Shown here piece after piece: positions 6,352 to 27,214 of a stretch of DNA of 32,655 nucleotides (positions within the stretch are counted from its first letter, which is position 1; the number at the start of each line of letters is the position of its first letter). Under the pieces are notes generated by a model. It searched no databases. It worked only from the letters and a program-made list of their open reading frames with translations, and had not been told where the DNA came from. A program made the position numbers and the translations under genes. This DNA comes from an uncultured Erysipelotrichaceae bacterium (lineage in GTDB: Bacteria > Bacillota_I > Bacilli_A > RF39 > UBA660): assembly GCA_902783315.1 (NCBI GenBank), contig CACZQK010000009.1, positions 1 to 32,655 on the forward strand, written 5' to 3'.

Positions 6352-8154
6352 CTAATTAATTATAGTAATTGTTCCATTATCTGAATCTAATTCTACTATC
6401 ATGCCATCTTTTAAGACTTTAGTAGCGTTTTTGCAACCTATAAGACATGGCTTTTTTAATTCTCTGGCGACGATTGATGCATGGCAAGTAACTCCACCTT
6501 CATCTGTTATGATACCACCTGCTTCTTTCATAATACTTGTAAATTTAGGGGTGGTCATGGGAGATACAATAATATCTCCTTTATTGAATTTTATAAAATC
6601 ATCTTTTGAATAGATTATTTTAACAGTCCCTTTACATTTTCCTGGATAGGCTGTAGTCCCATGAATTATTCCATCTGTATTGGTATCATAGTCTTCTACA
6701 TATAAATCTCTTTTTTGGCAGAATTCTTTCATGTTTGGTTCATACATTTTTCCTTGATAATAAATAAAACCCTTAAGTCTTTCTTCTAAGATATTGGTGT
6801 TGATATTATCAATATTCATAATGTCCTCAAGACTTAGGACTGATATATACTTTTGTAGATTATCTGGTAATGTTTTCTCAAGAAAAATATCAATAGTATC
6901 TAAGATTTCATATAAAACGTAATCATATTTATTTCGATAAGTATATATTTTTTCTCTTACTCTTTCCGTAATAATCCAGTCTCTTCCTGCTATATTTGAT
7001 ATCGTATTGAATGGTTGAATATAAAGTAGGTCATTAGTTAATTTTAACAAGTCAATTTTTTCTTTTTTAACTAATTCTAGAATTTCTTCACATATTTTTG
7101 AAGCTTTATCTATTTTTTTAGAAAAGTCATCAAAATTATCATCAAGAGCTCTAAAAATAAGTCCAGGACTTTCTTCTAAAGAGACAATATTATAATATAT
7201 TTCTGTTTTATGTGGTGATATAAAATAAATAACAGGATTTTGATAATATAAATCATTTGTTAAGTTTTTAATACCAAAATACTCGCCTTTACAATATATT
7301 TCAATTTGCCATAGTCTTTTTTGTCTTGTAAGCATATTTTTTATAGGCTCTTTTCTTGGAGTGAAAGCAGTAATTGGTCTTGCTTGAAGTATATATAGTT
7401 TATCTTTATAGCACCATTCTATATCTACTGGTTCTTGATATATTTTTTCGATTTTAAGAAGATATTCTTCTAATTCTGTTATTATTTCATTACTTAGCAA
7501 ATTCTCTCCATCTTGAAAATCTATTTGTTTTGTTTGACGTCTTACTAGATACGTTGAAGGCGTTATTTTTCCTGATACTAAGTTTTCTGCTGTTCCTTTA
7601 CAGGTTTCTATATAGCTATAGTTTTTACTTATCGAAATGGGGTTTATCGAAAATGCTACTCCAGAGAATGAAGCATTAATCATTTTTTGAATAATTACGT
7701 TCATACCAAAAAAGTTTATATCTTGTGTATCTGAATAGTTGAGTACATTATCATCATAAAGAGAGCACCAACACTTTTTAATTGATTCTAATATATTTTC
7801 TTTTGTTACATTGAGAAAAGAATTATATTGGCCAGCAAATGATTTTTTCTTACCATCTTCATTTTCTGCAGAAGATCTTACTGCAACCATATTTGTTTTT
7901 AATTTATCAAACTCTCGATATATGTTTTCTTTTAGTTTTTCACTGAAGGTTGCATTTATAATTTCTTGTTTAATTTTTAGAAAATCTTTTTTTATAATAT
8001 CTTTATTTATTTTTTCTATGATATTATTTTCTTTTAAAAATTGTTTAAAAGTACTACTTTTGATAATAAAGAAATCAGGTACTGGTAAAAGATTTTCTTT
8101 TAAAAATATTAATGAATCTGCTTTTCTTCCTAAATTTATTTTTTCTTCTTTCAT
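6352..8154 (-). CDS. Small-molecule dikinase: PEP/pyruvate-binding ATP-grasp plus phosphohistidine domain
   Basis: 600 residues. The N-terminal PPDK/PEP-synthase ATP-grasp domain (about 1-265) shows VAVRSSAENEDG, SFAGQYNSFL, FSGVAFSINP and PVDIEW...LQARPI. A middle region of about 230 residues has no motif I recognise. The C-terminal phosphohistidine swivel domain (about 510-600) has TTPKFTSIM, GGVTCHASIVAREL with catalytic His558, and a final Gly/Asp-rich strand. The PEP-binding TIM barrel of true PEP synthase is absent. ATP-grasp, middle, swivel is the layout of rifampin phosphotransferase (Rph), which moves the beta-phosphate of ATP onto a small molecule, but Rph is about 200 residues longer in the middle, so the substrate probably differs. 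An AAAGGGA site precedes the ATG. It is divergent from the NRPS operon. Confidence 0.8.
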   Translation of the reverse strand: MKEEKINLGRKADSLIFLKENLLPVPDFFIIKSSTFKQFLKENNIIEKINKDIIKKDFLKIKQEIINATFSEKLKENIYREFDKLKTNMVAVRSSAENEDGKKKSFAGQYNSFLNVTKENILESIKKCWCSLYDDNVLNYSDTQDINFFGMNVIIQKMINASFSGVAFSINPISISKNYSYIETCKGTAENLVSGKITPSTYLVRRQTKQIDFQDGENLLSNEIITELEEYLLKIEKIYQEPVDIEWCYKDKLYILQARPITAFTPRKEPIKNMLTRQKRLWQIEIYCKGEYFGIKNLTNDLYYQNPVIYFISPHKTEIYYNIVSLEESPGLIFRALDDNFDDFSKKIDKASKICEEILELVKKEKIDLLKLTNDLLYIQPFNTISNIAGRDWIITERVREKIYTYRNKYDYVLYEILDTIDIFLEKTLPDNLQKYISVLSLEDIMNIDNINTNILEERLKGFIYYQGKMYEPNMKEFCQKRDLYVEDYDTNTDGIIHGTTAYPGKCKGTVKIIYSKDDFIKFNKGDIIVSPMTTPKFTSIMKEAGGIITDEGGVTCHASIVARELKKPCLIGCKNATKVLKDGMIVELDSDNGTITIIN

Positions 8155-8339
8155 ATAGAGTCCCTTTTATATATTAAATCCTTTCTTTTTACTAATATTA
8201 TAGTACAACATTTCAATAATAATAGCATTAAATACTTCTTAAATTTTACAATTTCTTGTTAAAATATTATTTCCTTGACTGCATTTTATAGATTTTAGTA
8301 TTATAATGATGTAAGGGGAGTGTAAAAGGTGGTAGTAAT
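8155..8339. promoter_or_regulatory. Divergent promoter region between dikinase and NRPS operon
   Basis: On +, TTGACT at 8275-8280, an 18-base spacer and TATTAT at 8299-8304 form a likely promoter for the operon; TATAAT at 8302-8307 overlaps it. On the minus strand, TATAAT lies at 8202-8197 with only a poor -35, so the dikinase promoter is weak or activator-dependent. No clear dyad operator was found. Confidence 0.55.
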
Positions 8340-10385
8340 GTGAGGAGTTTGTGGAATAAAATTAATCATTTTATAAATAGTATTATGTTTAGAGTTATAG
8401 GATCTATTATAATATTAATACTCATTGTTACTTTTGTTATTGAAATATTAAGTTTTACAATCTTTTCAAGGTCAATTATTGGAATGTATAAGAAAGATGG
8501 GGAACAAGTTGCGAAAGAGATACTAACTAAAATCAATACAAATAATTTTGACAACTATTTAAAGGAAGAAAAAGAAGAAGAGTATTATAATGATTATATG
8601 AAATTAATTTTGTTAGGACAAATGAAAGAGGTTTCTCGTATTTATATTATACAAGTTGATGATAAATTTGAAGAATGTACTTATATATTTGATGCGGTTA
8701 ATATTGATACGGCTGTCTATGATATTGGAGAAAAAGCAAAAATTAATAGTAAGAGATATAAAAGAAAGTTGAAAAATTTGTATTCGATGAAAAGGCCAAA
8801 AGAAAATTATATGAAAAGAAGTTCTAAAAATGCAGAGTCTTCTTATTTTACAACATTAGTTCCTGTAAAAAAAGCTGATGGTGAGATAGTAGGAATATTA
8901 GGCATACAGTATTCTATCAAAAAATTAGTTGTTTCTGGAGTTTCTTTTTCAATTTGGGCTAGTGTAATTACTATTTTAATTATTATTGTTATATCTATTC
9001 TTGTATATCGCTTTTTTAGAAAGAATATAGTATTACCAATTATTGATATTTGTGATGAATCTAAAAGATTTGCTAGTGAAAATACTATTGTTAAGGAAAA
9101 AATGTTGGAAGAAAAGTTAATAGAAGAGAATAGCAAAATAACAGAAATTAGAGAATTAGCACAATCTATTGATAAAATGGAATGTGATACAATTAAATAT
9201 ATTGATAATTTAACTATTGCTACTAAAGAAAGAGAGAGAGTAGGTACTGAATTAAAACTTGCTAGTGCTATTCAAAAAAGTATGTTGGCTAATGATTTAC
9301 CGAATTCTTCAAGTTTTAATATAAGTGCTACAATGATGCCTGCTAAAGAAGTAGGGGGAGATTTTTATGATTTCTATATGATTGATGATAATCATTTGGC
9401 GTTAGTTATTGCTGATGTTGCCGGAAAAGGAATACCTGCTGCTTTGTTTATGATGATTACTAAGGTTTTATTAAAAACAAGAATGTCTATTTCTTTAACT
9501 CCTGCCGAGGTTTTAACTGTTGTTAATAAAGAAATTTATAAAAATAATCAAACCAATATGTTTATTACAGTTTGGTTAGGAGTTTTAGAACTATCAACAG
9601 GTATGTTAACATTTTCTAATGCGGGACATGAAGATATTGCTATTTATAGAGAAAAGAAAAAGTTTACTATTCATAAGAAAAAACATGGAATAGTGTTAGG
9701 AGCATTTGAAGATTATGAATATAAGAATTATCATTTGAGGCTAAATGGTGGAGACAAGCTATTTCTTTATACAGATGGGGTAGTTGAAGCAATGAATAAA
9801 GATGGTACTATGTTTGGAATTGAACGAATGCTTGAGGCACTTAATAAATCAAAGGATGATAAAGTGAGTGAGATTTTAACTAATGTGCAATCTGATGTGG
9901 ACAAATTTGTAGGAGAAGCTACTCAATTTGATGATTTAACTATGTTAGCTATTGAATATATAGGAGTGGATAAAGAAATGAAGAAAACATTTAAGGCTAA
10001 AAAAGAAGAATTAGATACGGTCTTATCTTTTGTAAATAAGGCTTCAGCTGAATATTTAAATCCTAAATTTATGTCAAAGATTGATTTGGTCGTAGAGGAA
10101 ATATTTATAAATATTGTTAAGTATGCTTATGGTGATGAAGTTGGTGATGTCGATATTGAGGTTAAAGCAACTGATAATAAAGTTGTTATTTCGTTTGAAG
10201 ATACTGGGGTTGCTTTTAACCCATTAGAAATAGAAGAAGCTGATGTAACGTTACCGATTGAAGAGAGAGAGATAGGTGGTCTTGGTATATATATGGTAAG
10301 AAAAATTATGGATAATGTTGAATATATGCATAAAGAAAATAAGAATGTATTAGTTATTGAAAAAAATATTGATGTGGAGGGTTAG
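8340..10385 (+). CDS. Membrane PP2C (SpoIIE/RsbU-type) phosphatase fused to RsbW-like ATPase
   Basis: 681 residues. Transmembrane segment near 17-40, an outside sensor region about 42-195 that ends like a Cache-type domain (VGILGIQYSIKK), a second transmembrane segment near 203-224, then a HAMP-like linker. The PP2C domain (about 300-540) keeps its metal acids: GGDFYDF (D341), DVAGKG (D359), YTDG (D479) and FDDLT (D531, D532). The C-terminal GHKL ATPase (about 550-680) has the N box EEIFINIVKYAY (N591), DTG (621-623) and GGLGIYM (646-652). In partner switching, RsbU/SpoIIE-type phosphatases dephosphorylate a STAS antagonist and RsbW-type kinases phosphorylate it; here both sit in one chain, with a STAS gene in the same operon. 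GTG 8340 follows AAAGGTGG; the overlapping ATG 8338 is followed at once by TGA. Confidence 0.9.
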   Translation: MRSLWNKINHFINSIMFRVIGSIIILILIVTFVIEILSFTIFSRSIIGMYKKDGEQVAKEILTKINTNNFDNYLKEEKEEEYYNDYMKLILLGQMKEVSRIYIIQVDDKFEECTYIFDAVNIDTAVYDIGEKAKINSKRYKRKLKNLYSMKRPKENYMKRSSKNAESSYFTTLVPVKKADGEIVGILGIQYSIKKLVVSGVSFSIWASVITILIIIVISILVYRFFRKNIVLPIIDICDESKRFASENTIVKEKMLEEKLIEENSKITEIRELAQSIDKMECDTIKYIDNLTIATKERERVGTELKLASAIQKSMLANDLPNSSSFNISATMMPAKEVGGDFYDFYMIDDNHLALVIADVAGKGIPAALFMMITKVLLKTRMSISLTPAEVLTVVNKEIYKNNQTNMFITVWLGVLELSTGMLTFSNAGHEDIAIYREKKKFTIHKKKHGIVLGAFEDYEYKNYHLRLNGGDKLFLYTDGVVEAMNKDGTMFGIERMLEALNKSKDDKVSEILTNVQSDVDKFVGEATQFDDLTMLAIEYIGVDKEMKKTFKAKKEELDTVLSFVNKASAEYLNPKFMSKIDLVVEEIFINIVKYAYGDEVGDVDIEVKATDNKVVISFEDTGVAFNPLEIEEADVTLPIEEREIGGLGIYMVRKIMDNVEYMHKENKNVLVIEKNIDVEG

Positions 10386-10388
10386 AAT

Positions 10389-13300
10389 ATGTTATCATTT
10401 GTAAAAAAGTTTAGTGAAAACGTTAAGAAATGTCCTAATGTGCCTTTGTTCTTTGATGATATTAATACAAAGGGAATCAGTTATGCTAAAATAGATGAAA
10501 TATCTGCTAAAGTATACAATTATTTATCTTCTAAAGGAATTGGAAAAGAAGATTTTGTTTTGATTAAATTACCTCGTGGGGTACAACCAATACTAGCTTT
10601 AGTTGGGGTTTGGAAAGCTGGTGCAGCTTGTACGATTGTTGAGGATAATTATGCTGAAGAAAGAGTTAAATTTATTAAAGAAGATTGTAATTGTAAAATA
10701 GAGATTAATACAAAAGTGTGGGATGAAATATTAAAATTGGAGCCAAAAGAAGGATTTGTGGAAGCAGATCCACATGATGCATGTTTTGCTATTTATACTA
10801 GTGGAACAACAGGAAATCCAAAAGGGGTTTTACACGAATATGGAGATATTCCAAGGTGTGTTCAATCCGTTATGATTTCTAAGAATGAAGCTTTAGTTAG
10901 TAAAAATGAACATGCTGCATTGGTAGCTCCGCTTAATTTTATTGCTTCTATGTTATTTATTATTTATGTTCTATATAATGGAGTAGAACTTGATAAAGCT
11001 AAATTATATATTGTTTCTTATGCGGTATTAAAGAATCCAGTTGCTTTAAAGAAATTTATGTTAGAAAAGACAATATCTTTAACCTTTTTAACTCCATCTT
11101 ATTTAAGAATGTTAAAGGGGTCAACTGGGCCTTTCTTAAAAACAATTATTGTTGGAAGTGAACCAGCTAATAATGTTTATATTAAGAATGTTAAAGCTGT
11201 TAATACTTATACAATGAGTGAAACTTGTTTCTTAGTTAGTATGTTTAAAATAGATAAGTCTTATGAAACTTGTCCTATTGGAAAGCCTCCATTTGATTTA
11301 GAAGTAAAATTACTTGATGAAGATGGTAATGAAGTAAAGGATGGAGAAGTTGGCGAAATCTGTGTTGATAATCCTTACTTTAGAGGTTATATTAATCTAG
11401 AAGAAGAAACTAAGAAAGCGAAAGCTTATGGTTTATATCATACGGGCGATTTAGCAAGAGTTGATTCTAATGGTAACTATGTTTTATTAGGACGTAATAA
11501 TGACATGATAAAGATTAATGGTAACAGAATTGAGCCTGCAGAGATTGAAGCGGCAGTTAAACAAGTTTTGGGTGTTAGTTGGGTTGCTGCTCGTGGCTTT
11601 AATGAAGTAAACCAATCTTATATCTGTGCTTATTATAAAGACGATGTTACTTTTGATATTGATAAAGTTCGTGAAGAATTATTGAAGAGACTTCCTTATT
11701 ATATGTTACCAGCTTACTTTATGAAGATTGATGAAATACCATTAAAGGCAACTGGTAAATTAGATCGAAAGGCTTTACCTGTCCCAGATACGAAAGATTT
11801 TAAAAGTAATTATGTTGAACCAACAAATGAACTTGAAAAAGTATTGTGTGATTCTTTTGAAAAAGTCTTAGGAATTGATAGAGTTGGAATTAAAGATGAT
11901 TTTTATGAAATGGGAGGAGATTCTCTAAAGGCAATTGAAGTAGTTGTTGAAACAAAACTTCCTGGTATTAATGTTTCTCATATTTTTCGTGGAAGATGTG
12001 CTGAAGAAATTGCTAAGCTTTATGATGAATCGGTTGTTAACGATGATGGAATATCTATTGATCAAAAAAATGAAGAGTCGATGAAATTATCTCATCCTTT
12101 AACAACTGAACAGTTATATATGGTTGACTATCAATTATATACCCCTAAGTCTACAATGTATAATTTATTTACAATGTTAAAGGTTGATACTTCACTTTAT
12201 GATATGAATGAGTTAGTTGAGGCTATTTATAAAGTGTTTAAAAACCATCCAGCACTACTTACAACTTTCCATTTTAATGAAGATGGTGATTTAGTTCAGA
12301 AATATAGTCCTGAAGTTTTAGAAGAAATTAGAGTAGAGCATGTTTCTGAATTTGAATTTTCACAAATAAAAGATAATTTGGTAATGCCATTTAAACTTAT
12401 TAACTCTAAATTGTATCGCTGTCGTGTTTTTCAAACAGAAAAGGCTGGGTATGTCTTTATTGATATTCATCATTCTTTATTTGATGGAACATCTTTTAAA
12501 ATATTGATGGCTAATATGGTTAAAGCTTATATGGGAATGGAACTTGATAAAGATTATTATTATTACATATTAGATAAAAGAGAAAAAGAAAAAGATTCCG
12601 ATTTCTATAATGAGGCTCGTAAATATTATGAAAATAAATATGATGATGTTGAATGGTCTATTAAACCTAAAATTGATTTTGAATCTAGAGAAAATGAAAT
12701 GGGAGAATTATTCTCTAAATTAAATATTGAAGATATGGAAATGTCCTTAATTGAGAAGAATTTTAAGATTAGCCGAAATGAGTTTTTTATAACGGTAGCT
12801 TTACTAGCAATAGCAGAATATAATAAAAAAGATAATGTAAAAATAACCTGGATTTATAATGGTCGTGATGATATGAATGCGATGAATAGTGTAGGGTTAT
12901 TATTTAGAGATTTACCCGTTGCTTTGAAATTAAATAATAAATTAACAATTCGTGAATTATATCAAGATGTTCATAAACAAGTACAAAATGCAATTAAATA
13001 TAGTTGTTATCCATATGAAGATTTAGATGCTGAAGTTGTTTCTGAAGATGGTGCCTGTTTACTTTATCAACAGGATATTAGAGATGGTGGAGATTTAGAG
13101 GATATGAATATTGAAATGATTCATGTTCGTCAAAATCAAGCTGCTTCACAAGCACTTCTTGATATTCAAATTCTTGATGGAGAAGATGGACTTGAAACAA
13201 TGATAGACTATGCTGCTAGTCGATATAAAAAGGAAAGCGTAGAGAAATTTAAAGATATCTTTGTTCGAATTACACAATTGTTGTTACATCATACAACACA

Positions 13301-13394
13301 GGATGATATCACTGTTAAGGATATCAGAGAAAAAATTAATGGTAATAATAATATCTTTAAAATTGTTACAAGTATCTTTAGGAGAAAGGAATAA
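10389..13394 (+). CDS. Single-module NRPS: adenylation, carrier, condensation (A-T-C)
   Basis: 1001 residues. The adenylation domain (about 1-470) has YTSGTTGNPKGV (136-147), NTYTMSE, YHTGDLARVD, NDMIKINGNRIEPAEIE and the closing ATGKLDRKALP with its catalytic Lys. The carrier domain carries GGDSLKA with Ser512 as the phosphopantetheine site. The condensation domain (about 565-1001) has the HHSLFDG active site (694-700). There is no thioesterase or reductase. At the place where amino-acid-activating domains carry Asp235 (GrsA numbering), this one has Ile185 (LNFIAS), so the substrate may lack an alpha-amino group. With the C domain last, the loaded acyl group is probably joined to a free amine or a partner protein outside this window. 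It starts three bases after the phosphatase gene; GGAGGG site. Confidence 0.9.
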   Translation: MLSFVKKFSENVKKCPNVPLFFDDINTKGISYAKIDEISAKVYNYLSSKGIGKEDFVLIKLPRGVQPILALVGVWKAGAACTIVEDNYAEERVKFIKEDCNCKIEINTKVWDEILKLEPKEGFVEADPHDACFAIYTSGTTGNPKGVLHEYGDIPRCVQSVMISKNEALVSKNEHAALVAPLNFIASMLFIIYVLYNGVELDKAKLYIVSYAVLKNPVALKKFMLEKTISLTFLTPSYLRMLKGSTGPFLKTIIVGSEPANNVYIKNVKAVNTYTMSETCFLVSMFKIDKSYETCPIGKPPFDLEVKLLDEDGNEVKDGEVGEICVDNPYFRGYINLEEETKKAKAYGLYHTGDLARVDSNGNYVLLGRNNDMIKINGNRIEPAEIEAAVKQVLGVSWVAARGFNEVNQSYICAYYKDDVTFDIDKVREELLKRLPYYMLPAYFMKIDEIPLKATGKLDRKALPVPDTKDFKSNYVEPTNELEKVLCDSFEKVLGIDRVGIKDDFYEMGGDSLKAIEVVVETKLPGINVSHIFRGRCAEEIAKLYDESVVNDDGISIDQKNEESMKLSHPLTTEQLYMVDYQLYTPKSTMYNLFTMLKVDTSLYDMNELVEAIYKVFKNHPALLTTFHFNEDGDLVQKYSPEVLEEIRVEHVSEFEFSQIKDNLVMPFKLINSKLYRCRVFQTEKAGYVFIDIHHSLFDGTSFKILMANMVKAYMGMELDKDYYYYILDKREKEKDSDFYNEARKYYENKYDDVEWSIKPKIDFESRENEMGELFSKLNIEDMEMSLIEKNFKISRNEFFITVALLAIAEYNKKDNVKITWIYNGRDDMNAMNSVGLLFRDLPVALKLNNKLTIRELYQDVHKQVQNAIKYSCYPYEDLDAEVVSEDGACLLYQQDIRDGGDLEDMNIEMIHVRQNQAASQALLDIQILDGEDGLETMIDYAASRYKKESVEKFKDIFVRITQLLLHHTTQDDITVKDIREKINGNNNIFKIVTSIFRRKE

Positions 13395-13396
13395 TT

Positions 13397-14752
13397 ATGA
13401 CTGAAGAAGATAAATTGGTAGAAGATAGTGAGTTAAGTCAAGACTTTAACTTTTTCTCTTTAATGAAATTTGTTTTTCCTAGTATTTTTGCTTTTGTATT
13501 TATTGCTTTATATCAAATGGTAGATGGCTACTTTATTCAAAAGTTTGTTGGAGATTTAGCAATATCAACGGTTAATTTATATTTACCAATTTTATATCTA
13601 TTTATTGCAATAGGGGTTATGCTAGGAACTGGAGCAAATGCTATTATTGTTAAAAAAGTTGGTGAAGGCGATTTAAAAGCAGCGGGAAAGTCTTTTTCAA
13701 ATGTTCTCTTATTTACCCTTATTATTTCTGTTATACTTACTGTTATTTGTTTAATATTTCATGAGCCAATTATGTCTTTTTGTGGAGCGACTTCTGGAAA
13801 TGTTGGATATTTAAGACCGTATTATATGATTATGACTACTTTTTCAATAGCGATTATTTTGCAATCTCTATTAGGAATTTTGATTATTGGAGAGGGAAAG
13901 TCTGTAACAGCAGCCGTTGTTATTATCGTTGGTGGAGTTCTTAATTGTGTTCTTGATTATATTTTTATGAAGCATTTTAAATGGGGAATTAGAGGGGCTG
14001 CAATAGCTACAACAATAGGGTATACTAGTACAATTGTATTTGCTTTTTATTATTATATAATTGCTAAAAAAAGTGCTTATAAGATTGAGTTTAGTAAATT
14101 GGATTTAAGGCAAATAGGTGAGATATCTTTTAATGGTTCATCTGATATGATTACTAATTTAGCTGGAGCTGTTACTTCAATGATTATGAATCATTTAGCC
14201 TTTAAATATTATAAAGAGATTGGGGTTAGTTCTTTATCTGTTGTTTTTTATTTTCAATTTATTATGGAATCAATTTTTTTGGGGTTTACTTCAGCACTAG
14301 AACCTGTTTTTAGTTATCATTATGGTAGTGGTGATATAGAGATGAGAAAGAAAGTCTTTTCTCTTTCTAATAAATGGATTTTATTAATTTCAGTAATTAT
14401 TATTATACTTGCTTTTGTTTTCTGTGATAATATAGTATCTATATTCTTTGAACCTGGTTCAGAAATATATCAGATAACTCAATTAGGATTTAGAGTTTCT
14501 GTTTTAGCAACTTTGTTCTGTGGTTATAATACATTTTATTCTGGACTTTTTACAGCGTTTTCTAATGGATTAATATCAGCTGTTTTATCTATTACAAGAA
14601 CATTTGTTGTTTTAGTTATTTGTTTATATTTATTATCATATTTATTTCAAGGTATGGGACTATGGGCAGCCTGGCCAGTAGCAGAGGTAGTAGCATTTAT
14701 TGTAAGTGTTGTATTTATTTTAAAATATAAAAGTCAATATGAATATTTATAG
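13397..14752 (+). CDS. MATE family multidrug/metabolite efflux transporter
   Basis: 451 residues with about twelve membrane segments in two halves, as expected for MATE (NorM/DinF-type) antiporters that use a Na+ or H+ gradient. Typical features are the first helix with FPSIFAFVFIALYQMVDGYFIQKFVG, the GTGANAIIVKKVGEGD loop, and the second-half repeat starting near ISFNGSSDMITNLAGAV. It starts two bases after the NRPS stop with an AGGAGAAAGGA site inside the NRPS end. Placed between the NRPS and the STAS gene, it is the natural exporter of the product, or a self-protection pump; this is inference from position. Confidence 0.9.
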   Translation: MTEEDKLVEDSELSQDFNFFSLMKFVFPSIFAFVFIALYQMVDGYFIQKFVGDLAISTVNLYLPILYLFIAIGVMLGTGANAIIVKKVGEGDLKAAGKSFSNVLLFTLIISVILTVICLIFHEPIMSFCGATSGNVGYLRPYYMIMTTFSIAIILQSLLGILIIGEGKSVTAAVVIIVGGVLNCVLDYIFMKHFKWGIRGAAIATTIGYTSTIVFAFYYYIIAKKSAYKIEFSKLDLRQIGEISFNGSSDMITNLAGAVTSMIMNHLAFKYYKEIGVSSLSVVFYFQFIMESIFLGFTSALEPVFSYHYGSGDIEMRKKVFSLSNKWILLISVIIIILAFVFCDNIVSIFFEPGSEIYQITQLGFRVSVLATLFCGYNTFYSGLFTAFSNGLISAVLSITRTFVVLVICLYLLSYLFQGMGLWAAWPVAEVVAFIVSVVFILKYKSQYEYL

Positions 14753-14764
14753 GAGGTAATGTAT

Positions 14765-15061
14765 ATGAAAATGAATATTGAAAAGAAAGATAAAGAGTTA
14801 TTAATTAAATTAGAGGGAAAGTTGGATACAAATACATCTGCAGATTTGGATGCTAAAATGTCTGAGTTAGATGGAATGGAAAAAGTTGTTATTGATATGG
14901 AAAAACTTGATTATATTTCATCAGCAGGACTTAGAGTTTTACTTTCTATGCAAAAAATTATGAATAAACAAGGTAAAATGACTTTAAAAAATGTATGTGA
15001 AAATGTTATGGATATTTTTGAAGTAACAGGTTTTTCAGAAATATTAAATATTGAAGATTAA
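14765..15061 (+). CDS. STAS-domain anti-sigma-factor antagonist (SpoIIAA/RsbV-like)
   Basis: 98 residues, the size of a free-standing STAS protein. The site DYISSAGLRVLL (49-60) carries the Ser that RsbW-type kinases phosphorylate (S52 or S53) and PP2C phosphatases restore. ATG 14765 is preferred over ATG 14759 because AGGAGG at 14751-14756, overlapping the MATE stop, gives eight bases to the former and only two to the latter. The likely kinase and phosphatase are both in the fused protein encoded first in this operon. No sigma factor or separate anti-sigma factor is visible, so the output of the switch is unknown; it could act on the enzyme, the exporter, or the fused kinase itself. Confidence 0.9.
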   Translation: MKMNIEKKDKELLIKLEGKLDTNTSADLDAKMSELDGMEKVVIDMEKLDYISSAGLRVLLSMQKIMNKQGKMTLKNVCENVMDIFEVTGFSEILNIED

Positions 15062-15062
15062 T

Positions 15063-15578
15063 ATGATATATGTAAGCATAAGAAAAAAAGATGAAATTTC
15101 AATCGATGAAGATATTTCTTTTTCCAAAAACATTACAAGGGAGGAGAGTCGAAAAGCTTATTCTTTATTAAAGAAAATGATGGATTTTGTTGGGGTTGAT
15201 TTTGATATTTCTAAAGTAAGAATATCTAAAAATGGAAAACCTTACTTTATTGATAATCGAATCAAGTTTAATTATTCTCATTCCACTCATTATATTGCTT
15301 GTATTTTATCTGATTGTGAAGTAGGAATTGATATTGAAGATGATTTTAAAATTTCAAAAGAGGCAGCTTTTCTTTATTTAAATCAAGCCTCTTTCAATTT
15401 GAGATATCAATGGGTTATGAAGGAGGCTTATTTTAAATTTAAGGGAGATTTTTCAGAAGATGAATTTAAAAAGCTAAGAGTAGAAGATATTGATTCATTT
15501 CATCATATTATTGAAAACGATAGATATCTTTGTGTTGCTTTTTGTGAAAAAGAGGATGATATTGTATTTTTTAGTTAA
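15063..15578 (+). CDS. 4'-phosphopantetheinyl transferase, Sfp type (short)
   Basis: 171 residues, shorter than Sfp (about 224). It moves phosphopantetheine from CoA to a carrier-protein Ser, here most likely Ser512 of the NRPS. Motifs: GKPYF, FNYSHSTHYIACIL, EVGIDIED with the metal acids, and WVMKEAYFKFKG (the W-x-x-KEAxxK signature). ATG 15063 lies one base after the STAS stop and so is probably translated by coupling; a TTG at 15051 inside the STAS gene has no ribosome site. The C-terminal region is short, which may reflect narrow specificity for one partner. It is the last gene of the operon and is followed by a strong terminator. Confidence 0.88.
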   Translation: MIYVSIRKKDEISIDEDISFSKNITREESRKAYSLLKKMMDFVGVDFDISKVRISKNGKPYFIDNRIKFNYSHSTHYIACILSDCEVGIDIEDDFKISKEAAFLYLNQASFNLRYQWVMKEAYFKFKGDFSEDEFKKLRVEDIDSFHHIIENDRYLCVAFCEKEDDIVFFS

Positions 15579-25458: not shown

Positions 25459-25486
25459 ATTGAATTATTATTAATTGGAGGTTTTT

Positions 25487-27214
25487 ATGAATAATTTGTT
25501 TGATTATTTTACTAGAGTAAAATTTAAGTATGATGATTTGAAAAGTATTTTAGATAAAATAGTTGAGAATTATCATTTTACTGAGGTAAAATCATATTAT
25601 GTTATTGAAACTGGTTATGAAGATTTTAATGTATATATGGAAACTTTAAATAGTAAATATGTGGTTAAATTCTTTTCAAATGAAAGGTCTATGGAGAATA
25701 TTCATCATTATATAAAAATAGTTGATTCAATTTCCAAACAAGATTATTTAAATGTTCCTAAAGTATTTAGAAATGGAGATAATCTTTTGGGTAAAGTAGA
25801 CCAGAATAATAATGAAATATATTTTTTTGTAATGGAATACATTAGTGGTACAACCTTATATGATTTAGATAAAAAGATAGACTTAAAAACAATTATTAAA
25901 ATAGTATTTGATGTTTTAAAATATAATTGTGTTAATAAAGACTTAAAAGATTATTTATATACAGATGAAGCTAAAAAGTTTAAGCAATATGATATGTGGG
26001 GTTATGATCATTTTTTAGAAGAATATAAAGAAAAAAGTAAATACTTATCTTTAGAAGATAAGAAAATGATAGAACCAATCGTTTATTATTATAGGGACAT
26101 GGTAAAGCGTTATGAAAAATATGGTAAAAAGTTTAAGAACTTACCAGTTATGCCTCCTTATATGTCTGCTCATAATGATTTTATTTCTACAAATATTGTT
26201 TTAAAAAATAATGTAGAGCCATATTATATTGATTTTTCGGTATCATCTATTGCGCTTAATTTTGTTGATGTTGCGATATTTGGTTGTGATACGGTATTAA
26301 AAGATGGAATTACTGCTTCGGAGTATGCTAAGTATTTGAAAATAATTAGTTATATTTTATATCGAACTCATATTATGGAGTATAATTTATATCCGACAGC
26401 TGTTGCGGTGCAACATGCTATTCATGTGTTAATTGCTAATTACTATAAAGTACATGATGGAATTAATTCTTTGGAAAATGATTATTTTTTAAATCTTGGT
26501 AGAATAGGAATTAAGTATTTACAAGAGCAAGATTTAATTAATAAACCAGTTTTTAATTGGATTAAGAATGGTGATTGGTATGAAAGATCTGAACTTAGTA
26601 GAGTTTCAGAATATTCTAATATAAAGCAAGAAATAGAGGATTTGGGTTTAACTAATTTTATTGAAGATAATATAAAAGAATATTTCAAATTATATAATAG
26701 AAATAATAATGGTGAAGAATATTCTAATATTAAATTGGATGACTTATATCATAAAGGCTATGATTGGTTATATTCTTGTGTTGATAATGTTAAATCTAAT
26801 GAGACTATAATGGCAATTTCTTTTTGTAATGAAAATGAATGGAATGGAAAAAAAGAAGAAAATTTGTGGACTAGGCTTAATATGGAGGCCCTTAAGAGGA
26901 ATGTTTTTATGAAAAGGATATTTGTATATCCAGATAATAAAAAGAATCTAGTTGTTAATAATAAAGATATTCATCGATTTGTATCATATAAAAAGAATAA
27001 TTTGGAACTTGGATTTATTTCTGAGTCTAAAATACGTGAAGTATTGAAAGAAAAATTTGCTAAGATATATCCTGGTGTTTTAGTATTCAATGATAATATA
27101 GCTTTTATTGATAATGTTAATGACCCCGAAAATAGAGGATATAATGTTTTTGAAAAGGACAAAATCAAAGAATACTATGATATTTATGAAATTGTAAGAA
27201 AAAACTGTGACTGA
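25487..27214 (+). CDS. Aminoglycoside-phosphotransferase-fold kinase-like protein with extra C-terminal domain
   Basis: 575 residues. Residues 1 to about 345 look like the APH/choline-kinase fold: a Lys in YVVKFF (near 62), the hinge FFVMEYISG, the catalytic loop AHNDFISTN (H229, D231, N236) and the metal-binding IDF (D249, in place of DFG/DWE). It would phosphorylate a hydroxyl or act on an amino-acid-like substrate. After a linker (about 365-425), residues 430-575 form a further alpha/beta domain with IMAISFCNENEW, MKRIFVYPDNK and VLVFNDNIAFIDNVND; I do not recognise it, though its strand order could fit a phospholipase D-like or response-type fold. The ATG is chosen because GGAGG at 25477-25481 sits before it; TTG 25475 overlaps that site. 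Confidence 0.72.
   Translation: MNNLFDYFTRVKFKYDDLKSILDKIVENYHFTEVKSYYVIETGYEDFNVYMETLNSKYVVKFFSNERSMENIHHYIKIVDSISKQDYLNVPKVFRNGDNLLGKVDQNNNEIYFFVMEYISGTTLYDLDKKIDLKTIIKIVFDVLKYNCVNKDLKDYLYTDEAKKFKQYDMWGYDHFLEEYKEKSKYLSLEDKKMIEPIVYYYRDMVKRYEKYGKKFKNLPVMPPYMSAHNDFISTNIVLKNNVEPYYIDFSVSSIALNFVDVAIFGCDTVLKDGITASEYAKYLKIISYILYRTHIMEYNLYPTAVAVQHAIHVLIANYYKVHDGINSLENDYFLNLGRIGIKYLQEQDLINKPVFNWIKNGDWYERSELSRVSEYSNIKQEIEDLGLTNFIEDNIKEYFKLYNRNNNGEEYSNIKLDDLYHKGYDWLYSCVDNVKSNETIMAISFCNENEWNGKKEENLWTRLNMEALKRNVFMKRIFVYPDNKKNLVVNNKDIHRFVSYKKNNLELGFISESKIREVLKEKFAKIYPGVLVFNDNIAFIDNVNDPENRGYNVFEKDKIKEYYDIYEIVRKNCD

Follow-up and report, generated by a model that had tools for sequence, protein, structure and literature searches.

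Partner switches are known mainly for freeing a sigma factor, as in the RsbU/RsbW/RsbV and SpoIIE/SpoIIAB/SpoIIAA systems of Bacillus subtilis. The operon described here resembles those systems in having a phosphatase, a GHKL kinase and a STAS antagonist with a phosphosite serine, but no sigma factor is linked to it, and biosynthesis and export genes stand in its place. Sigma-free partner switches are already known. In Vibrio fischeri SypE/SypA, as in our locus, a PP2C and RsbW-type kinase protein controls a single-domain STAS protein with no known sigma target; in contrast to our locus, SypE has a receiver domain, the output is biofilm formation, and there is neither an NRPS nor a MATE exporter. 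The SiaA-D system of Pseudomonas aeruginosa likewise uses a membrane PP2C in a non-sigma partner switch, although its output is a diguanylate cyclase. An RsbW-like protein that affects an NRPS product is known as well: TciK/TciR of Vogesella indigofera, in which the output of the indigoidine pathway is influenced by a protein that carries an RsbW-like domain, is a two-component system with a receiver domain, and no STAS-MATE operon is described for it (PMC12826045).

The closest gene combination was reported in 2010 from the archaeon Methanobrevibacter ruminantium M1, where in mru_0066-0071 the genes flanking an NRPS encode a MatE exporter, an anti-sigma factor antagonist and a pair of serine phosphatases, a set for which the authors proposed sensing, regulation and export (PMC2812497). 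The layout and the rumen habitat are the same as ours, so the operon layout is not unprecedented; however, the M. ruminantium cluster is archaeal, has a two-module NRPS and is known from annotation only, with no fusions or direct-control model described. That note was the only one on the gene combination found by our open-access literature search, which, with subscription journals outside it, returned no mechanism for the layout, no RsbW-MATE or STAS-condensation fusions and no account of the system as such.

We consider it probable, on balance, that the operon is a partner switch that works without a sigma factor and is coupled to a small-molecule synthetase with the matching exporter.

Gene content of the operon and its host

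The window, by which we mean the whole 32,655-nucleotide stretch of DNA analysed, is an entire contig (G000:C9) of a 1.4-Mb metagenome-assembled genome (MAG) that is 72% complete. The MAG belongs to a rumen-type Firmicute that forms spores, and its near relatives with names are "Erysipelotrichaceae" RUG MAGs from the rumen. Five co-directional ORFs, overlapping or spaced by a few nucleotides, form one tight operon (Table 1). The original prediction of a five-gene operon that covers synthesis, activation and export in full and brings a partner switch of its own is borne out by the ORFs, by Pfam and by gene content, the transferase being recognised from its motifs and from models below cut-off. 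The promoter-like site upstream is weak, because such matches are not above chance expectation in AT-rich DNA.

Table 1. Features of the window
Feature	Coordinates	Strand	Basis
Divergent PPDK/PEP-synthase-like gene	6352..8154	-	PPDK_N/PEP-utiliser, 600 aa
Promoter-like site upstream of operon	8275..8304	+	10/12 matches
Operon	8340..15578	+	Five ORFs
Sensor phosphatase-kinase	8340..10385	+	Pfam SpoIIE/PP2C (PF07228) E 8e-52; HATPase_c_2 (PF13581) E 3e-21
Single-module NRPS, A-T-C	10389..13394	+	Pfam AMP-binding 3e-48, PP-binding 1e-5, Condensation 1e-36
MATE-family exporter, unfused version	13397..14752	+	Pfam MatE (PF01554) 1e-31, two stretches
STAS protein, SpoIIAA/RsbV type	14759..15061	+	Pfam STAS (PF01740) 7e-15; TIGR00377 above cut-off
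Sfp-type 4'-phosphopantetheinyl transferase (PPTase), overlaps STAS gene	15051..15578	+	No Pfam match; NCBIfam AusB/AcpT E 2e-9 and 2e-6, both below cut-off; hallmark motifs VGIDIE and WVMKEAYFK both read directly
Protein with N-terminal APH-like kinase domain	25475..27214	+	579 aa

Two neighboring genes were rejected as parts of the cluster: the PPDK/PEP-synthase-like gene, which is not matched in L044, a near-identical locus, and a downstream MgtE gene, which is common to L044 only. The product of the former scores below cut-off against PEP synthase, PigC/RedH ligases and rifamycin phosphotransferases. The gene for the protein with the APH-like domain belongs to a run that also includes a gene resembling ornithine cyclodeaminase. 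On another contig of the same MAG, near sigG (L160 423-3642, G000:C95), a second PPTase-like gene is accompanied by genes for a small protein resembling a carrier and for an adenylation enzyme that stands alone.

The switch proteins

The phosphatase-kinase consists of a sensor (residues ~1-240), a PP2C/SpoIIE domain (349-539) and an RsbW/SpoIIAB-type kinase domain (551-674). The metal-binding Asp residues expected of an RsbU/SpoIIE-type phosphatase are intact, with GGDFYD, IADV, YTDG and FDD invariant or nearly so in the alignment across loci, and the GHKL kinase domain retains its N box and ATP lid (VVEEIFINI, EDTGVAF and GGLGIYMV). An AF2 model (mean pLDDT 74, low pTM) has an N-terminal membrane part in which a long helix accompanies a PAS-like sheet, and suggests a Cache-like fold for the putative membrane/extracytoplasmic sensor; its Foldseek matches are the RsbU-RsbW part of Rv1364c, SiaA (whose PP2C is among the closest solved structures), SpoIIE, SpoIIAB and RsbW. 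Receptors of the dCache type for AI-2 joined to serine phosphatases have been reported from the rumen, which gives a lead only for the sensor. The phosphatase is kept while sensors vary, with other membrane parts in L049, L052 and L053. The phosphatase-ATPase fusion, part of the original prediction, is present in the window but is not obligatory, the kinase being a separate gene adjoining the phosphatase in L044, L048, L049 and L052.

The STAS protein carries the phosphorylatable serine of a SpoIIAA/RsbV antagonist within YISSAGLR; the predicted phosphosite is Ser55, set by eye against SpoIIAA/RsbV. In the MAG, a single gene each was found for a SpoIIE-type phosphatase, an RsbW-type ATPase and a STAS protein, all in the operon, and the absence of others is provisional because of the incompleteness of the MAG.

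The synthetase, its transferase and its exporter

The NRPS is an A-T-C module with GGDS and HHxxxDG core motifs intact and with no thioesterase, reductase or other release domain. In an alignment to LgrA, the A domain has FIAS at LgrA's FDGS, which places Ile at the position of GrsA Asp235, the Asp expected in an NRPS for alpha-amino acids; this column holds Ile or Val in all cassette orthologs and Asn in L057. The other pocket positions, mapped by eye onto GrsA, appear mostly hydrophobic. Because the Asp that binds the alpha-amino group is absent, the substrate is probably an acid other than an ordinary alpha-amino acid. The acylated product proposed at the outset gains some support from this.

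The best curated model for the A-T-C protein is AusA, and the PPTase is AusB-like, a resemblance to the aureusimine system and the gut pyrazinone NRPSs. AusA, however, is a two-module enzyme with a reductase, whereas the window NRPS is one module that ends in C and is accompanied by a partner switch. The exporter has the two MatE repeats of its family. Carriage of the NRPS on plasmids was considered and rejected, as tblastn against plasmids returned generic NRPSs only (best ~27% identity).

Conservation of the linkage

The linkage between switch and synthetase is conserved across Firmicutes orders. A scan of 85,000 species genomes gave 18 loci, and 17 of these are Firmicute loci. The order of phosphatase, kinase, NRPS, MATE and STAS is kept in seven (L044, L045, L046, L047, L048, L049 and L056, the last from Lachnospiraceae bacterium NC2004); a search of this kind had been proposed in the original prediction. 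One locus is rearranged, with STAS-kinase-phosphatase divergent from the NRPS (L052); another holds MATE, phosphatase, STAS and NRPS (L053), and a third STAS plus NRPS (L051). In L057, L058, L059 and L060, the NRPS has no switch in the surrounding DNA examined, and none lies within reach of the related NRPS genes in L057, L058, L266-L268, L271 and L277. The separation of switch from NRPS that would have counted against the idea is therefore found in some relatives (L057, L058, L266-L268), while the linkage is kept in others. Among 392 genomes sampled from the phylum, seven besides the window's own gave a strong NRPS match, five of these with readable surroundings, and STAS plus PP2C-RsbW occurs in four of the five.

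Distances for NRPS, MATE, STAS and PP2C correlate (Spearman 0.61-0.95), in part through shared ancestry. The NRPS is 71% identical to that of Lachnospiraceae strain NC2004, about the same as RpoD (70%), and only approximately five genomes of the genus carry the cassette, which hints at horizontal transfer of the cassette without proving it.

The family of strain NC2004 comprises 397 genomes in our Lachnospiraceae set, with an NRPS match in 36, and PP2C, RsbW or STAS domains occur in 21 of the 35 NRPS surroundings fetched. There were 42 switch genes in 362 kb of non-NRPS DNA around NRPS genes versus 2, both in one locus, in 287 kb of control DNA made up of 20 arbitrary stretches of the same genomes. 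This is a density ~16 times higher around NRPS genes, to be read with a small control, some stretches that are short contigs, and detection HMMs built from the system's own members.

Switch domains fused to exporters and synthetases

In some relatives, domains of the switch are joined physically to the exporter or the synthetase. A C-terminal RsbW-like domain on a MATE protein scores above the Pfam cut-off in 15 proteins at distinct loci (L194, L195, L197, L234, L235, L280, L281, L283, L284, L285, L287, L289, L290, L291 and L295). Among the matches listed by a family-wide search, those of MATE-RsbW fusion length come from 43 of the 397 genomes of the NC2004 family (two counted as split matches), and they are concentrated in the genomes with an NRPS (18 of 36, against 25 of the remaining 361; Fisher p 3e-10). 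The RsbW domains fused to MATE are without the GGLGI ATP lid, and some are without the Mg-binding Asn, whereas those fused to PP2C mostly keep both. This difference fits a division into receivers and kinases, with the MATE-fused domains as putative receivers.

On the synthetase side, one protein of L300 combines STAS with a condensation domain (Pfam 2e-14 and 3e-38, respectively), and the genes for A-T-C and MATE come next. The STAS-condensation fusion occurs in three species, the two further proteins being 89% and 50% identical to that of L300, and the order STAS-C, A-T-C, MATE is kept in L300 and L324. In L274, STAS is fused to an LPG-synthase-like enzyme encoded between A-T-C and MATE.

These fusions, which involve the exporter as well as the synthetase, are the strongest evidence we have, and they favor control at the post-translational level, acting on synthesis or on export, which is the direct control of synthesis or release originally suggested. 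The window's own parts are separate proteins, its MATE and NRPS both being without a fused switch domain, so direct contact here is extrapolated from the fused relatives, and in most of these the MATE belongs to another subgroup and the NRPS has several modules.

MATE-RsbW fusions are found away from NRPS genes too, and 12 of 20 such non-NRPS surroundings hold another PP2C, RsbW or STAS gene. Two loci without an NRPS combine a MATE-RsbW-type exporter with a GH3-family adenylating ligase and an ATP-grasp enzyme, together with a PP2C sensor in L320 and with PP2C, RsbW and STAS in L336; here the same wiring serves another conjugate-making enzyme. In the window's own family, MATE proteins of ~660 aa with an extra C-terminal part were observed (L240 5076-7055 and L241 5252-7228).

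A possible mechanism and its implications

If the operon is such a switch, its topology suggests that the Cache-like sensor, facing the outside, would set the balance between the PP2C and the RsbW-type kinase within one protein. The intact motifs of both domains are consistent with dephosphorylation or phosphorylation of STAS at Ser55. By analogy with the fused relatives, STAS would then act directly on the synthetase/exporter pair with no release of a sigma factor, and what is switched could be the activity of the NRPS, that of MATE, or docking between the two. The PPTase would prime the carrier domain, the A domain would load a probably hydrophobic acid rather than an ordinary alpha-amino acid, the C domain would join the acid to a soluble acceptor, an amine or alcohol, and the product would be exported by MATE.

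A more specific form of this mechanism is a docking switch, which we put forward tentatively. STAS would lie on the synthetase side and a degenerate RsbW-type receiver on MATE, and dephosphorylated STAS would bring the enzyme to the pump, coupling synthesis to export. Such a switch may be widespread and non-transcriptional, operating in gut Firmicutes and one rumen archaeon and serving GH3/ATP-grasp ligases as well as NRPSs.

What sets these loci apart is that, in bacteria of the gut and rumen, a type of switch associated with sigma factors is found time and again beside, and sometimes joined to, a synthetase for small molecules or its exporter. An outside signal could thereby turn on a secreted metabolite without new transcription. 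Many unstudied gut NRPS clusters would be marked as signal-gated, and STAS locked in the unphosphorylated form would offer a handle for eliciting silent products.

Sigma factors and other explanations

A module of the SypE/SypA type offers another reading, in which the STAS output promotes expression or assembly by a different route and NRPS and MATE are regulated genes with no direct contact to the switch. The V. fischeri system demonstrates that kinase, phosphatase and STAS can work with no known sigma target, and unfused forms dominate the window's own subfamily; nevertheless, in relatives both exporters and synthetases have repeatedly been joined to switch domains, which argues against this explanation, and we consider it unlikely.

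We give about the same weight, and so regard as improbable, to a classical anti-sigma switch, in which a sigma factor whose gene lies outside the operon is kept bound by the RsbW domain and, upon sensing, is set free to transcribe the operon or a wider regulon. No sigma factor gene was found in the scanned parts of the window or among the operon genes, and none was recognised in any relative's cassette, so the absence of a nearby sigma factor noted in the original prediction holds for both; the cognate sigma gene that sigma-B and sigma-F operons contain is likewise missing from the operon. Targets exist in principle, since our survey of Sigma70_r2 in 13 cassette genomes found six such proteins in the host (named by eye as RpoD, sigE beside spoIIGA, sigG, a further sigE/K-like factor, a sigF-like factor beside spoVA, and an ECF-like factor), and no RsbW-type ATPase was found in the MAG beyond the one in the cassette. 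In a survey of 39 genomes of the genus, however, 26 have a sigF-like gene and ~20 of these are without a strong RsbW-type ATPase, a strong match being present in 7 of the 39. SpoIIAB seems to be absent from most of the genus, and sigF seems generally to run without an RsbW-type partner, an argument limited by incomplete MAGs. In two relatives (G432 and G433), a STAS gene adjoins the sigF-like gene, beside recA, as an anti-sigma arrangement might have it, yet the phosphosite serine is absent from both (IDYKGIS and IDCKGIN). The RsbW-MATE and STAS-condensation fusions point elsewhere, as does the archaeal occurrence: archaea have no bacterial sigma factors, so the M. ruminantium case cannot involve one. 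The sigF-like sporulation sigma is itself divergent in the genus and its neighbors (L153 2487-3499, L154 2330-3335 and L152 2117-2734), and its gene is either spoVA-adjacent or, in G432/G433, recA-adjacent.

It is very unlikely that a common Firmicute signaling module was merely inherited next to the NRPS by chance, for although SpoIIE-HATPase-STAS modules without a nearby NRPS exist in the same genus (L167 and L168) and some NRPS orthologs have no switch, conservation across orders, the ~16-fold enrichment, the overlapping genes of a tight operon and the fusions all speak against a neighborhood without function.

Switch domains also occur in further combinations. A recurrent protein of 381-389 aa combines STAS at its N terminus with a part resembling APH kinases (L279 3867-5036, L045 15582-16727 and L196 6772-7938; Pfam-confirmed for L279 only), and in L045 it is encoded ~2.5 kb downstream of the cassette. 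L334 encodes STAS and RsbW domains in one 526-aa protein, whose gene adjoins one for PP2C and a pair for MATE, the latter including an RsbW-fused member.
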